Shown in pieces: positions 1 through 6,166 of a DNA stretch of 30,928 bases. The stretch is from a virus: the IMG/VR virus record IMGVR_UViG_3300033153_002437, positions 1-30,928 of that record. One strand, given 5' to 3'. Numbering within the stretch: the stretch's first letter is position 1; each line of letters opens with the position of its first letter. A model generated the notes under the pieces. It did not search any database and was not told the DNA's origin. It worked only from the letters and a program-made list of their open reading frames with translations. The translations under genes were made by a program, and so were the position numbers.

Positions 1-1107
1 GGTGATAAGTTTAGTACATCGTTAACTGCTGAGACAGATGCTGTTACATCAGGGTTTGCATTAAAACTAATGCAGATGCCTATTATTGGTAAAGGAATGG
101 AAGGACTATTCAAGTGGCTTAATAAAGTAGGAGTATTTCGTACTCAAGACTTAGGAGCTGTAAATGCTGATGGGTATAGTATGAATGACATCCTTAGCCA
201 AAAAGACTTCTTTGATAGTTATCAGACACTTGCTAAAGAGAGTAAGGTTAGTGCACAAGGCACTGCTAAAGCTTTTGCTAAGAATAGAAAGAATTATAGG
301 TCTACGTTTGTGAATAACATATGGAAGGCTATAGAGCCTGCTTTACCTACATTTGATGGTACTGAAGTGTCTAGTGAGCTTAGAACGTTGTTTAAAGATC
401 CATTTATGACATTTAACTACAGTGCTGGTATGAAGTCTATTAGACAATCACTGTCTAATGTACTTACTAATAAGCTTGTAACTAAAGTTATTACTGCTGA
501 AAAAGGTACTGCTGATTATACACTACTTGAGACATTAGCTGCTCAAGTAGGGATGAAGCCTGAAGAGTTACAAGTTAAACTTAATACTGATCCATTGTAT
601 ACTATAAAATTAAAAGGTAGTGAGATATCACTGGAATCTTTACTTAATGAGTATATAGATGCTAGTTATGGTGAGACTGTACAGAATATTATGGAAACTG
701 AGTTTAAAGAGTTTATTGAAGCTCAGAAGAATATTAATGATGCTTTTAAAGCTATGTTCCAGTTGTTTAATAAAGAATACACAGATGAGATAGCTAAGAT
801 ACATAAAGAGAAAGGTTTTGTTACTGAGGATGCTAAGTTAGAAGTTATTAATAAGTTACGTAATAAGTTCCCTGCTATTAAAGGGCCATTACAAGATAAA
901 GAAGATAAGTCTGATTATATTGGTATTTATAAGACTACTAATGCTACACCTAGTAGTGTTGATGAGAGGCTTAAACCGGCACAGACATATATAATTGGAG
1001 ATAATGGTGAGGTAGTTACTGATAAAATACGTCATGAGATTAAAGTATTTGAAGAAGCTATATCAGCTGGTGCTGTTGTACCTATTCACTTTATTGATGG
1101 TGCTTGA
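1..1107 (+). CDS. T7/N4-type (virion) RNA polymerase, catalytic part with motifs A and B; 5' partial
   Basis: The frame is open from base 1, so the gene starts outside the window; the ATG at 70 has no ribosome binding site. Counting from base 1, motif A of single-subunit RNA polymerases is visible as ETDAVTSGFALK with the catalytic Asp at residue 13. Motif B is RTLFKDPFMTFNYSAG with Arg128, Lys132 and Tyr140. The R-x3-K-x7-Y spacing is the same as in T7 RNAP (R627, K631, Y639) and N4 vRNAP (R666, K670, Y678); the Gly after Tyr is Ser here. The A-to-B distance (115 residues) is close to that of N4 vRNAP. Motif C is not in this ORF but directly after its TGA stop, in the same frame, in the next entry. 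The neighbouring giant virion protein suggests an injected virion polymerase that transcribes early genes. The family call comes from motifs only. Confidence 0.75.
   Translation, partial: GDKFSTSLTAETDAVTSGFALKLMQMPIIGKGMEGLFKWLNKVGVFRTQDLGAVNADGYSMNDILSQKDFFDSYQTLAKESKVSAQGTAKAFAKNRKNYRSTFVNNIWKAIEPALPTFDGTEVSSELRTLFKDPFMTFNYSAGMKSIRQSLSNVLTNKLVTKVITAEKGTADYTLLETLAAQVGMKPEELQVKLNTDPLYTIKLKGSEISLESLLNEYIDASYGETVQNIMETEFKEFIEAQKNINDAFKAMFQLFNKEYTDEIAKIHKEKGFVTEDAKLEVINKLRNKFPAIKGPLQDKEDKSDYIGIYKTTNATPSSVDERLKPAQTYIIGDNGEVVTDKIRHEIKVFEEAISAGAVVPIHFIDGA
1105..1107 (+). other. In-frame TGA separating RNA polymerase motif B from motif C
   Basis: The codons read GGT GCT TGA ATG GGT. The frame before and after the TGA is the same and stays open for 521 further bases. 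The catalytic Asp of motif C lies 17 codons after it. No AGGA-type ribosome binding site precedes the ATG at 1108, unlike almost every other gene here. The options are readthrough, reinitiation giving a two-chain polymerase, a real nonsense mutation, or a sequencing error. Confidence 0.85.
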
Positions 1108-1629
1108 ATGGGTAGTATTATTACTGAATTAAATGGTAATCTTACTGCTATACATGATGCTATTATGCCTCCACTTAATGTACTTAATGAAAGTGCTAAT
1201 AAGTATAATGAAGCTTACATAGAGGTTGGTAATAGTTATAGTGTTATAGAAGAGATCCAGAATCAACTTAAGTCTGCTATTAAAGGTGTTGATTTAGCTG
1301 ATGAGTATTATAATGAATACTATAGAACTGAAAATAAAGAAAAGATTGATAGACGTGAATTCATTGAAAGTACTATTAAGAACTTTGAAAAGTTATCTAC
1401 TACTGTTAAAGAGGCTCGTAAAGAGTTAAAGAAAGAAATTGATAAGGGTGTTGTTGTTGGACATATGGCTTCATTAGAAGAAGGAGTATACTTACATAAC
1501 GTAAATCCAGTTGACATTAAGACTGAAGCAGCTATAATTCCAGATAATATAAGTACAGATATCTCGGAAGAGGCAATTGCTAAAGCTAACGAGATGTTAG
1601 ATACAAACGAAGCAAACTGTAAAAAGTAG
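1108..1629 (+). CDS. RNA polymerase C-terminal part with motif C (173 aa if started at 1108)
   Basis: This is the in-frame continuation of the polymerase after the TGA. Residues 14-18 read AIHDA, which matches the HD of motif C (catalytic Asp, as in T7 RNAP D812 and N4 D951). The distance from motif B Lys to this Asp, counted across the TGA, is 254 residues; it is 281 in N4 vRNAP. The remaining chain is rich in Lys and Glu and probably helical (KEARKELKKEID near residues 101-112). The only plausible start is the ATG touching the stop, with no Shine-Dalgarno. It therefore needs readthrough or reinitiation to be made. It is followed after 7 bases by the next gene, which has its own AGGATAA. Confidence 0.65.
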   Translation: MGSIITELNGNLTAIHDAIMPPLNVLNESANKYNEAYIEVGNSYSVIEEIQNQLKSAIKGVDLADEYYNEYYRTENKEKIDRREFIESTIKNFEKLSTTVKEARKELKKEIDKGVVVGHMASLEEGVYLHNVNPVDIKTEAAIIPDNISTDISEEAIAKANEMLDTNEANCKK

Positions 1630-1636
1630 GATAAAT

Positions 1637-4600
1637 ATGCCCTGTAGAACAGCACCACAAGTAATAAATGATTTAACTAAAGTATTCATAAAAGACCTTA
1701 AGGCAGGTAATATAGCCCATGGCCTTGGTAAAACTCATGCTAATATAGTTAGTGAAGCTAGAAATAGTGCCACTATAATGGTAGAGAGAAGATTAGCTGC
1801 TATAAAAGAAGAGATGGAAGCTGAGGTAGATAAAGAAGCTGAACTTACTGGCGCTGCATTAGAGCTTAATGCTAATAAGCCTAGAGTACGTAGTGCTAAG
1901 AGTAAATCACTTGTTAGTGTTACTGTTGTAGAAGTTAATAATGATAAAGTATATGTTAAGTTTCCTAGAGGTGAAAAGATCTATAAGTATAACCCTGAAG
2001 AGGTATCTCTAGATCAAGGAGATGCTAGAACTATAGTTAATAAATACACATCGTTAAAGGCACCTACGAAGTCCGTGACGGACAAAACTCCTGCTAAAGG
2101 TAAAAGTACTCCTGTAAAGGTTAAGGAGGCTCCTAAGGCTTCTAATGAAGTTAAGAAAGGTACTAAGTTACTTCATGTAAGTACAGAGACGTTTGATGCA
2201 TTTGCAACAGCTGGTGAGGATATTGGGGATGGCTTCACTGTGGGTGTAGGTGTACATGTAGGTACTAAAGATACTACTGGTGAACTAGCTACTCAAAGAG
2301 GTAGTGATACTATAGTATATGATGTAACTATTAATGATGATATAAAAGTATTAGAGATGAAAGATACTGGTGATAGTAAGTGGACTGCTAATAATATGCA
2401 TGACCAATTAGTAGGTATATTTGGTGAAGTACCTTTAACTAAGAAGAGTACTGATGCAGAAGTAAGAGATTTTCTTATTAGTAAAGGGTATAGTGCAGTT
2501 AAATATGTTAATACTGAAGAGGGTGGAGTATCTTATATGGTACTTGATACCGGTAAGTTTGATATTAAAATAAAAGAAGATATTGAATTAGGAAGTACTA
2601 AAGAAGCTAGTAAAGTAAAATGGAAAGATGCTAATAGAATAGAAGATGAAGTACATGGTAATATAGAAGCTATGCAGAATCTTATGGGAGAACTTCATGA
2701 GTTAGGTGGAGGCAAGGCCTCTGATAAACATCTAGAGTATTTAAAAGGTCTATTAGGAAAGATGAGTCCAGACTTCTTCGAGAATATGAAGACTCATATA
2801 TTCACTGATGCTAAGAAGTCAGAAGGTATGGCTTTATCTAAAGATATTAAAGTAGCTGTACGTAATAAGCCTAATATAGCTAATAATCAAATGAGTGATG
2901 CAGAGGTATATGCACATGAAGTAGTACATAGTATGATTATGTTTGCTATAAGACAAGATACTAATGAATCTAGAAAGATTAAAAGACAATTAGAGCATAT
3001 GGTAGATGCTGCTTTAAGTAAAACTAAGTGGGAAGACTTTCTACCTGCTGAGAGTCTAGATGCTAAGGTAGAAGAGCAAGAAGCTAAAGAGATGTATGAT
3101 TATATCTTTAATAGTGAAAACTCTATAGAGGAGCTTATAGCACATACACTCACAAATCCAATAGTAATGGAACATATGAAGAGTGTAGATATAAAAGAAG
3201 AAGAGAAAGCTAAAACATTATGGGATAAAGTAATGAATGCATTTATCTCTGTAATGGAGATGATTAGTGGTGAATATTCATTTAAAGATAAAAGTAAGAA
3301 TGTATATGAGCAGGCATTAAACTTATCGTTTAAATTAGCTGAGTCAAATAATAAAGCAGTAAGAGAGAGAAATAGTAAGATTAATTTGGCAATGAGGTTA
3401 TGGCAAGGATTCCAGAAGTATAATATAAAGTCTGGAGAGATGTTAGAGAATACGTGGGATAAGTATGTGGATAAAGGGGATTATGTTAAACCTCCAAAAG
3501 AAGGATTCGCTAGAGCTAAATGGATGGTTGGTGCAATAGCTAAGATGATAACTAATCAGCACTATCGTAAGTCTATGGAACTAATCCTAAGTGGATTTGG
3601 ATTCCAGCCAGAAGGTGACATTCAATCCATACTCCGAGACTTCTTTAAAAGTGATGACTTAACCGAATCTGTAGATATGTTAGCACTTCTATCAGATAAA
3701 GTAGATACTGCTAAGAATATACTTATAACTGCTGTAGGGGATTTAGTTCATAAAGGATTTAATAGAAAATTAACTAATGATGAAGAATCTGCACTAACTA
3801 GAGTACTTATAGATACTGATATGTCTAGCATATCTGATCAGTTTACATCTAAGACTTTATCAAAATTATTAAGTGATGATACTGAAGTAGATAGAAGAAT
3901 AAGTAGAGTAAAACACAAGCTTAAAGAGCTGGATGATGTTAATTATAATTGGAATACTACACAAGGCAGTAGTTTAGGGTATTTCATGGCCACTGGTAAA
4001 GGGCATATAGCTCAAAGTATTAATGCTAGGAATATTGCTGCGGGAGTACACGCAACACACAGAAGAAAACCTAATGCTAAAGTGGTTAAAGCCTTAGATG
4101 AGCTTGCAACATTAACTGCATTGAAATATGTTAATGAAAAAGCTAGAGCACTAGTTAAAAGGTTAATGAGAGATAATAGAAATGGCGTTGAGAATGTGAT
4201 GAAGATTCACCAGGAGTTTAAGAAGGAATCAGCTAAAACTGTGTTTGCTAATAGCGAGGTAAATATGATTAAAGGTTATAGTAAAGAGACTTTTGATGAT
4301 AAGGTAAGTGTGGTTATTGCCCCTATAAGTGAAACTAAAGAGTTAGCTAATGATGGGTATGAGTTGAAAACTGAGTTACCAAAGAATAAACTTGATGATA
4401 AGAGTGTTCCTATGGGGATGTTTGTTGCTGAGTCGTATGAGATTGGGGAGTGGTATAGAAGCGCTACTAGACTAACAGGTGTTAGAAGTAGAGGTACAAC
4501 TCTTAAAGAAATTGCAATAAGTAATAAACATAATGATAAATTTGCTATTAGTAGAGCTGGTGCGTTAAAAGAAAAAGTAGAGATGAACAGAAGGAATTTA

Positions 4601-6166
4601 GTTAAGAAGATTGAGAAAGGGGAGTTAGATTTTAAAGATTTAGATCATGGGTTAATACCAGTGTTAGATGAAGATGGTTATGTAACTGATTATCGTTATG
4701 TGATGACTAATGAGAATAAGAATGATATCCTTAAGAAAGATAGTAGAATAAGTACTGTAATGAGCCATTCATTTGGTCATACATTAGATAAATATGAAAC
4801 TAAAGGTCAAAACGAGAGAGTTCTTGAAATGTTGTTAGGGGATATGGAGGAGAATTATATTGAAGGTAGTACTATTGGCAAGAACCAAAAGAAATACATT
4901 TTAATTAGTAGAGATAGTTCGAATCCTGAGATTGAAGAGTTGTATAAAGTATTGCCTCCTATGTTTAAGAGAGCAATGCAAGAAGAGGCTTCAAAAGGCT
5001 TGGCTGTGAGAGCTGATCTACTTCATAGTTACTTTGGATATAGACATGCTAGTTTAGCAGGTAATGAACTTATAAAATCTGTAACACCACGTATTATGCA
5101 TAAACTATTGAAAGTAGCTGAACATATGTGGATGGAGTTTATTAAGATTAGTAAAGTTGATATCCTTATTAAGATGCCTATTGTTATGGTAGGTAACCTT
5201 ATAAGTAACTTCATGTATTCTGTAATGACTGGTACTAATCCAGTGACATTAATAAAAGAGTATATAGAAAGCTCAAGAGCTGTAACTGACTACTTTAGAA
5301 GGCATAAAGAGCTTGTGGAGCTTAGATTAGCAAAGAAGACAGGTAATGTTGAAAAAAGAGATTTAAATAGGATTAAAACTTTAGAAAGACAATTAGCTGA
5401 AAGTTCTATTGCTGAGTTAGCTGAGCTAGGTATCTATCAATCTATAGTAGAAGATATGGAGCATCAAGATATAGAAAGTACTAATAAAGTTAAGCAACAA
5501 TTAGTTAACGAGTTAAGTAAAGCTCCTAAGATTGTACAGCAAGGATTAGAGATCTTATATTTAACAGAGAATACTAAGTATCATAAGATAATGAATGGTC
5601 TTCTTACTAAGTCTGACCTTGTAGCTAGAGATATTGAAAATAGAAAATTAAAAAGAATTCAAAAGTTACAGGCAGCTGGTAAAATGGACTTACCTAAATG
5701 GTATGTTGTTGAATCTAGTGGTAAAGATAAGTTAAAATCTTATAAATATAAAGCTGAAAAGCGTAGACTAACTGGCGATGAGAGAAAAGCATTTATGGTA
5801 AAAGCTGATAAACAGAGACATTCAACTGTACTTAACACGTTTATTAATTATAATAAGCCTTCAGGTAAAATTGAAGAATACCTTAACAGAATGGGGTTCA
5901 TTATGTTTACTAAGTATGCTAAACGTATTCAAAGAGTTATAGCAGAAACTGGTGCTAAGAATCCTCTTAACGTAATGGCTATACTATTAGGTGAAGAGTT
6001 TATTATTGGAGATGTTGAAACAATCTATGACCAACAGTTATTAACTAAGAGTTGGTATAGCCTTGGTTTAGGGGCTGGTGATATGATACCTGGAACTAAT
6101 CCTTTTGATAGGATTATGGAAGTTATTGAGCCACCATTAGTTCAACTAATTAGAGATCCTCTCTAG
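1637..6166 (+). CDS. Giant virion protein with ADP-ribosyltransferase-like and HExxH metallopeptidase domains (1509 aa)
   Basis: The protein is probably a large structural or ejected internal virion protein. Residues 175-305 (LLHVSTETFDAF, then GVGVHVGT) resemble ADP-ribosyltransferase-like domains of polyvalent phage proteins. Residues 427-431 are HEVVH, a zinc metallopeptidase signature, and EELIAH at 498-503 could supply the third ligand. Residues 150-170 form a Lys/Pro/Ala-rich linker. A hydrophobic stretch (IKMPIVMVGNLISNFMYSVM) lies near residue 1185 and may contact membrane during ejection. The C-terminus (NYNKPSGKIEEYLNRMG onward) looks like the end of other large phage internal proteins. 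The start is supported by AGGATAA. It follows the polymerase gene and ends the plus-strand block, overlapping the convergent gene by 4 bases. Domain calls are by eye; the virion role is inferred from size and position. Confidence 0.7.
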   Translation: MPCRTAPQVINDLTKVFIKDLKAGNIAHGLGKTHANIVSEARNSATIMVERRLAAIKEEMEAEVDKEAELTGAALELNANKPRVRSAKSKSLVSVTVVEVNNDKVYVKFPRGEKIYKYNPEEVSLDQGDARTIVNKYTSLKAPTKSVTDKTPAKGKSTPVKVKEAPKASNEVKKGTKLLHVSTETFDAFATAGEDIGDGFTVGVGVHVGTKDTTGELATQRGSDTIVYDVTINDDIKVLEMKDTGDSKWTANNMHDQLVGIFGEVPLTKKSTDAEVRDFLISKGYSAVKYVNTEEGGVSYMVLDTGKFDIKIKEDIELGSTKEASKVKWKDANRIEDEVHGNIEAMQNLMGELHELGGGKASDKHLEYLKGLLGKMSPDFFENMKTHIFTDAKKSEGMALSKDIKVAVRNKPNIANNQMSDAEVYAHEVVHSMIMFAIRQDTNESRKIKRQLEHMVDAALSKTKWEDFLPAESLDAKVEEQEAKEMYDYIFNSENSIEELIAHTLTNPIVMEHMKSVDIKEEEKAKTLWDKVMNAFISVMEMISGEYSFKDKSKNVYEQALNLSFKLAESNNKAVRERNSKINLAMRLWQGFQKYNIKSGEMLENTWDKYVDKGDYVKPPKEGFARAKWMVGAIAKMITNQHYRKSMELILSGFGFQPEGDIQSILRDFFKSDDLTESVDMLALLSDKVDTAKNILITAVGDLVHKGFNRKLTNDEESALTRVLIDTDMSSISDQFTSKTLSKLLSDDTEVDRRISRVKHKLKELDDVNYNWNTTQGSSLGYFMATGKGHIAQSINARNIAAGVHATHRRKPNAKVVKALDELATLTALKYVNEKARALVKRLMRDNRNGVENVMKIHQEFKKESAKTVFANSEVNMIKGYSKETFDDKVSVVIAPISETKELANDGYELKTELPKNKLDDKSVPMGMFVAESYEIGEWYRSATRLTGVRSRGTTLKEIAISNKHNDKFAISRAGALKEKVEMNRRNLVKKIEKGELDFKDLDHGLIPVLDEDGYVTDYRYVMTNENKNDILKKDSRISTVMSHSFGHTLDKYETKGQNERVLEMLLGDMEENYIEGSTIGKNQKKYILISRDSSNPEIEELYKVLPPMFKRAMQEEASKGLAVRADLLHSYFGYRHASLAGNELIKSVTPRIMHKLLKVAEHMWMEFIKISKVDILIKMPIVMVGNLISNFMYSVMTGTNPVTLIKEYIESSRAVTDYFRRHKELVELRLAKKTGNVEKRDLNRIKTLERQLAESSIAELAELGIYQSIVEDMEHQDIESTNKVKQQLVNELSKAPKIVQQGLEILYLTENTKYHKIMNGLLTKSDLVARDIENRKLKRIQKLQAAGKMDLPKWYVVESSGKDKLKSYKYKAEKRRLTGDERKAFMVKADKQRHSTVLNTFINYNKPSGKIEEYLNRMGFIMFTKYAKRIQRVIAETGAKNPLNVMAILLGEEFIIGDVETIYDQQLLTKSWYSLGLGAGDMIPGTNPFDRIMEVIEPPLVQLIRDPL

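Follow-up and report, generated by a model that had tools for sequence, protein, structure and literature searches.

Where does the polymerase chain of this virus end, and what is a stop codon doing between its catalytic motifs? The window, that is, the whole stretch of DNA analysed here, is a linear 30.9-kb virus record whose position 1 already lies inside a gene. Read in frame 1, the sequence has no stop codon over nt 1-1104, meets a TGA at 1105-1107 with an ATG at 1108 directly behind it, and runs on to a TAG at 1627-1629. The original prediction saw in this frame a virion RNA polymerase (vRNAP) cut by the TGA between motifs B and C, and listed stop readthrough, termination-reinitiation giving a two-chain polymerase, a nonsense mutation and an error as options. 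The frame and the coordinates of the TGA are confirmed, and the features on which the question turns are these:

1-1104, plus strand: polymerase chain of the vRNAP up to the TGA, with motifs A and B, 5'-truncated at the contig end (phrog_2206 and alignments)
37-39, plus strand: catalytic Asp of motif A, D13 (invariant in 21 aligned sequences)
382-420, plus strand: motif B, R128-x3-K132-x7-Y140 (R128, K132 and Y140 invariant in 21 sequences)
1105-1107, plus strand: TGA within the frame at codon 369, peculiar to this record (a stop in no relative; inside predicted helix 363-376 of the model)
1108-1110, plus strand: ATG next to the TGA, encoding the conserved Met of PIHxIDGAxM (nearly all intact relatives have ATG here too; without an SD-like site)
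1108-1629, plus strand: remainder of the polymerase chain with motif C, to the true stop TAG (phrog_2206; the end matches the chain end of relatives)
1150-1158, plus strand: motif C, I384-H385-D386 (D386 invariant; aligned to N4 D951)

Is this a vRNAP at all? Both pieces match the vRNAP profile phrog_2206 (368 aa, E 3.6e-23; 173 aa, E 7e-8), and with the read-through product (P0001) the match is stronger than with either piece alone (E 7.2e-36). The key catalytic residues are invariant or nearly so in the 21-sequence alignment, and motifs A, B and C all stand at the positions first proposed. An alignment profile finds the N4 mini-vRNAP 3c2p (E 1.6e-13) and places D386 on the N4 catalytic residue D951; a profile was required for this, phmmer with the single sequence giving no real match in the PDB. 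The predicted fold can be superposed on N4 vRNAP 9pnq over 423 residues (Z 18.1, rmsd 4.5). The position of the T/DxxGR motif lies upstream of the contig start, outside the window, and phage records searched at the DNA level gave no match. The alignments thus identify the region as encoding the catalytic part of a Schitoviridae-type (N4 gp50-like) virion RNA polymerase.

How private is the TGA? It falls 17 codons before the motif C aspartate D386, with invariant residues on both sides (P361, H363 and D366 before it, D386 and A387 after it). No stop interrupts the match in any of the 20 other polymerase loci aligned, a hydrophobic residue (e.g. L, I, V or A) stands at codon 369 in the relatives in which it was read out, and 38 homologous ORFs, some of them overlapping fetches from the same contigs, pass the position in frame. 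In the predicted model (pLDDT 77.5) helix 363-376 contains the codon and runs into the motif C hairpin. Wherever homologous ORFs cover the window, the TGA is the sole in-frame stop on a coding strand, and no frameshift was seen there; two more hits, at 4278 and 4647, lie antisense to the gene of the C-terminal domain. When viral contigs were scanned with a degenerate pattern for a TGA at this position, only three unrelated contigs came up.

Could the TGA be decoded? That it is a sense codon throughout the phage has one in-frame TGA in its favour, against which five other ORFs of the window gene set end in TGA, there are 102 TGG codons and the 1509-codon neighbour has no in-frame TGA. Since those five ORFs terminate with it, TGA is not recoded; the doubt about whole-genome recoding voiced in the original prediction was well placed, and the chance of a recoded phage is negligible. 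Readthrough at a useful rate is a different proposal, in which a few full-length chains would suffice for the few virion copies. The frame and the motifs are conserved on both sides of the TGA, a second lesion downstream is absent and the need is low (4 +/- 1 vRNAPs per virion in N4, PMC12633501). A functional readthrough stop should be conserved in relatives; however, all of them have a sense codon here, no suppressor tRNA was found in the window, and the RNA fold at the TGA shows nothing distinctive compared with relatives and belongs to no Rfam family. Useful readthrough is therefore improbable, and the stop is not supported as a functional device.

Could translation instead restart at ATG 1108 and yield a working two-chain catalytic core, split between motifs B and C? 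The ATG adjoins the TGA directly and vRNAP similarity is kept in both pieces, but this ATG is the conserved Met codon and so is no evidence of a start. It has no SD-like sequence before it, as had been noted from the start; the break would fall within the predicted palm helix; neither of the ends created by the TGA carries a Cys, against 43 of 43 natural junctions (see below); and N4 RNAP II, offered as a precedent, keeps motifs A to C in a single chain. Reinitiation is accordingly a very remote prospect. Judged against relatives that hold intact polymerase copies, the TGA, which lies ~1.1 kb from the contig end, is most likely a private nonsense mutation or a sequencing or assembly error near that end; a mutant genome or a sequence error fits it far better than a functional device. 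By itself the TGA would be of importance only if fixed.

If the TGA is a lesion, which stop is the natural one? The original prediction, sound on the identity, the motifs, the TGA, the missing ribosome-binding site and the absence of recoding, is not borne out as regards functional readthrough or reinitiation, and it overlooked a natural split of the vRNAP, between a polymerase chain ending at TAG 1627 and a C-terminal-domain chain encoded by the 1509-codon neighbour. This boundary has the following features:

1618-1620, plus strand: Cys codon C540, third-last residue of the polymerase chain (EANCKK*), conserved in all split relatives
1628-1631, plus strand: AGGA, SD-like site of the C-terminal-domain gene, overlapping the TAG
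1637-6166, plus strand: vRNAP C-terminal-domain chain, a separate gene of 1509 aa (tblastn and alignment to vRNAP C-terminal domains)
1643-1645, plus strand: Cys codon for C3 of the C-terminal-domain chain, which begins MPC (18 sequences all share M1 and C3)

By alignment with the chain ends of relatives, the true chain boundary is TAG 1627 / ATG 1637, ~520 bases past the TGA. The C-terminal domain, part of the polymerase's chain in N4, is a separate gene with its own start here and across a large clade. An N4-type single chain of ~3,500 residues is therefore not seen in these viruses; the single-chain state is a trait of the type member N4 and is unnecessary for homology. The first ~300 residues of the C-terminal-domain chain (window 1637-2536) match one other locus only (L023, 45% over 137 aa) and form an exchangeable head region. 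The rest of the window (6869-30928), mainly on the minus strand, holds replication and nucleotide genes: a helicase, a PhoH-like protein, a DNA ligase, an exonuclease, a primase, a homing endonuclease, the large and small subunits of ribonucleotide reductase, and a DNA polymerase encoded as separate exonuclease and polymerase genes.

Is the split between the two chains real? A published survey that joined the ORFs manually attributed such splits, for AD45-P1 and pSb-1, to gene-calling faults or readthrough (PMC10654107), and the cysteine signal described below was thereby overlooked; GenBank likewise labels the AD45-P1 pair 'potential frameshift'. The split is found, however, in many separate contigs. 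Junctions between chains were tabulated first at 29 loci (40 junctions) and, with loci found later, at 32 loci (43 junctions). Among the first 40 the frame offset takes all three values (22, 10 and 8 junctions), the downstream chain has its own predicted start codon, ATG in 39, and an SD-like site is present in 37. The gaps range from -11 to 26 nt, apart from one of ~184 nt that contains an extra short ORF. To this must be added the pairing of cysteines across the junctions; in pSb-1, by contrast, the pieces lack Cys and resemble the products of frameshift errors. Frameshifting or readthrough as the cause of the split is rejected on the offsets, the separate starts, the SD-like sites and the paired cysteines, and it is scarcely credible that a gene-calling fault or either of these produced the polymerase/C-terminal-domain division.

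What, then, is the cysteine signal? C540 is the only Cys in its polymerase piece, and the Cys of MPC is the only one among 1509 residues. The same holds well beyond this record. At each of the 43 junctions, in 32 loci, the upstream chain carries one Cys close to its end and the downstream chain one at residue 3-6. In the 40 junctions of the 29 loci tabulated first, each facing end has exactly one, that of the upstream chain 0-5 residues from its end, and a neighbouring Lys accompanies 22 of these 40 upstream tags. Elsewhere in those 29 loci there is no Cys in 107,942 residues, so that the general absence of Cys from vRNAPs extends to these chains, with the terminal tags as the sole exceptions. 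Opposite-strand ORFs of the same loci contain 1.32% Cys (408 in 30,839), from which more than 1000 would be expected in 107,942 residues. Both kinds of Cys codon are used and the exact position differs between junctions, and therefore it is the residue that is conserved, not a DNA motif. The tags have a polarity: where the outer ends are seen, the first chain has none at its N-terminus and the last chain none at its C-terminus (a 5'-truncated contig does not reach the start of the first chain). One locus, L112, would be an exception to this polarity, with an N-terminal Cys on its first chain if the first ATG is used. Common descent links part of the junctions, so that the 43 do not count as independent events. 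The three loci that turned up once the rule had been stated (L111, L112 and L115) all obey it at the junction; a profile search of genome contigs with a closer alignment gave two loci. No description of terminal cysteines in split vRNAPs was found in the literature searched, which left most subscription literature outside.

Two observations on these loci stand apart. L111 (CALIBI010000067.1) and L112 (JAEHGX010000003.1) are split-vRNAP phage contigs in metagenome-assembled genomes (MAGs) labelled Sulfolobales and Falkowbacteria, labels that are probably binning errors. The genes upstream of the polymerase chain (444-1238 aa; e.g. L002:2457-4223, L014:2190-4157) have neither Cys nor end tags, and are likely to encode further ejection proteins.

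How do the fused enzymes compare? Fused N4-like vRNAPs have been described as lacking Cys, with the explanation that disulphides are avoided during passage (PMC3715699, PMC2784036, PMC3915230, PMC4837373). Here Cys is absent from 42 of 46 fused vRNAPs; the other four, counted from the first Met, have 25 (L049), 20 (L052), 2 (L053) and 1 (L079), which limits family-wide Cys avoidance and not the junction rule. Two of them (L049:1-13104, L052:1751-13867) are homologues on a long branch near the split clade that break the Cys-free habit. In a tree of the C-terminal domain (FastTree, with some long branches) the split state falls mostly in one large clade, with three changes in total. One fused enzyme, L006, is nested with good support beside the split loci L003 and L004 and has no Cys in 3141 residues; compared with L003, it lacks the end of the polymerase tail and ~248 residues from the start of the C-terminal-domain chain, and with them both cysteines. 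Re-fusion has thus removed the tags.

Chains have also been gained. Extra chains are present in L002 (408 aa), L024 (776 aa) and L025 (224 aa), a split lies upstream of the polymerase domain in L022, L026 and L080, and a shared module is its own chain in some loci and part of a neighbour in others. By its scatter on the C-terminal-domain tree, the extra chain arose several times. Every middle chain is tagged with Cys at its two ends and is otherwise free of it. In one group (L041, L042, L047, L070) and in L059 the additional chain matches AAA_30 and Dda-like helicase profiles and keeps the Walker A and DE motifs, although the predicted model of one such chain is weak (pLDDT 56). These SF1 (Dda/RecD-like) helicases (L041:6403-9342, L042:3370-5997, L047:3370-5820, L059:6456-9368, L070:4397-7429) are encoded between the polymerase and C-terminal-domain chains, without internal Cys and with a Cys tag at each end. 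To judge from this arrangement, they are probably injected along with the polymerase.

What might the facing cysteines do? The explanation that we find probable, on the evidence of sequence, has three parts: the TGA would be a private lesion, the TAG at 1627 the working end of the chain, and the facing cysteines would couple the chains through disulphides. With somewhat more reserve we also lean towards a train of separate proteins (N-terminal domain, RNA polymerase, sometimes helicase, C-terminal domain, in that order) coupled head to tail by terminal-Cys disulphides that would be broken in the cytoplasm. In this clade the giant polymerase is encoded as two or three chains, Cys-free except for one at each facing end. 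Once the virion meets an oxidising setting, we infer from the pattern of residues, each facing pair could form a disulphide, and the linked chains would then cross the tail and the periplasm in order as one string. The fused vRNAP of N4 would offer a parallel, passing with peptide links in place of disulphides. In the reducing cytoplasm the bonds would be reduced and the chains would separate. N4 vRNAP has been described as a beads-on-a-string arrangement of domains joined by flexible linkers, in which the C-terminal domain reduces polymerase activity (PMC12633501). The chain splits coincide with the interdomain linkers of N4 (domains from PMC12633501), and since they fall between domains, reduction could release the polymerase from its inhibitor. 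A counterpoint to the coupling is that virion assembly occurs in the reducing cytoplasm.

Do the cysteines need to pair with a neighbour? Metal binding, homodimers, lipid attachment or enzymatic ligation would be other roles for a terminal thiol. The Lys beside 22 of the 40 upstream tags could fit other thiol chemistry. Such roles sit less easily with tags that are confined to facing ends and lost on re-fusion, a restriction that points to pairing between neighbours. A usual metal site would need more than two thiols, and a middle chain has to have two different partners. We regard another thiol role as unlikely, though it keeps an appreciable share of probability.

Disulphide coupling would bear on how a 3,500-residue enzyme passes through a tail channel of ~35 angstrom, and on why vRNAPs avoid Cys. 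Cuts at domain linkers with facing cysteines suggest a direct and reversible answer, an end-to-end disulphide string that extra enzymes such as the SF1 helicases can join as further links. If this is true, the couplings would hold outside the cell and in the periplasm, enzymes could be added to the cargo, and the polymerase would be switched on by reduction.

How does the locus compare with known systems? N4 RNAP II (gp15/gp16) is likewise a polymerase of single-subunit type in two chains, and is made in the cell, not injected. Its 404-residue subunit (6dt7_B) spans motif A to motif C, aligned with model residues 1-490, whereas the TGA would part B from C; covering the whole aligned catalytic span in one subunit, it is a poor precedent for a break at that codon. 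The vRNAP of Shigella phage pSb-1 (gp101-103; L109:394-11182, NC_023589) is annotated in three ORFs. None of its breaks carries a Cys, and the reading frames continue across each of them, so it is probably one gene broken by sequencing frameshifts; the TGA resembles breaks of this type and not the natural chain junctions. With N4 gp50 and other Schitoviridae vRNAPs the window shares the polymerase fold and motifs, the C-terminal domain, the gene order, the Cys-free interior and the domains on flexible linkers, but N4 and most Schitoviridae have one chain and no Cys, as opposed to two or three chains with one Cys per facing end. A further close system is the vRNAP of the Alteromonas phages AD45-P1 to P4 (Efbeekayvirus). 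Their Cys tags were found nowhere described in the literature searched, and unlike the window they have no internal TGA and are annotated as a potential frameshift. They have the same split, with a chain that ends in HCKQ and one that starts with MTIC, and the isolate AD45-P4 concurs with AD45-P1 on these tags. AD45 is a cultured phage with a Cys-capped split vRNAP.
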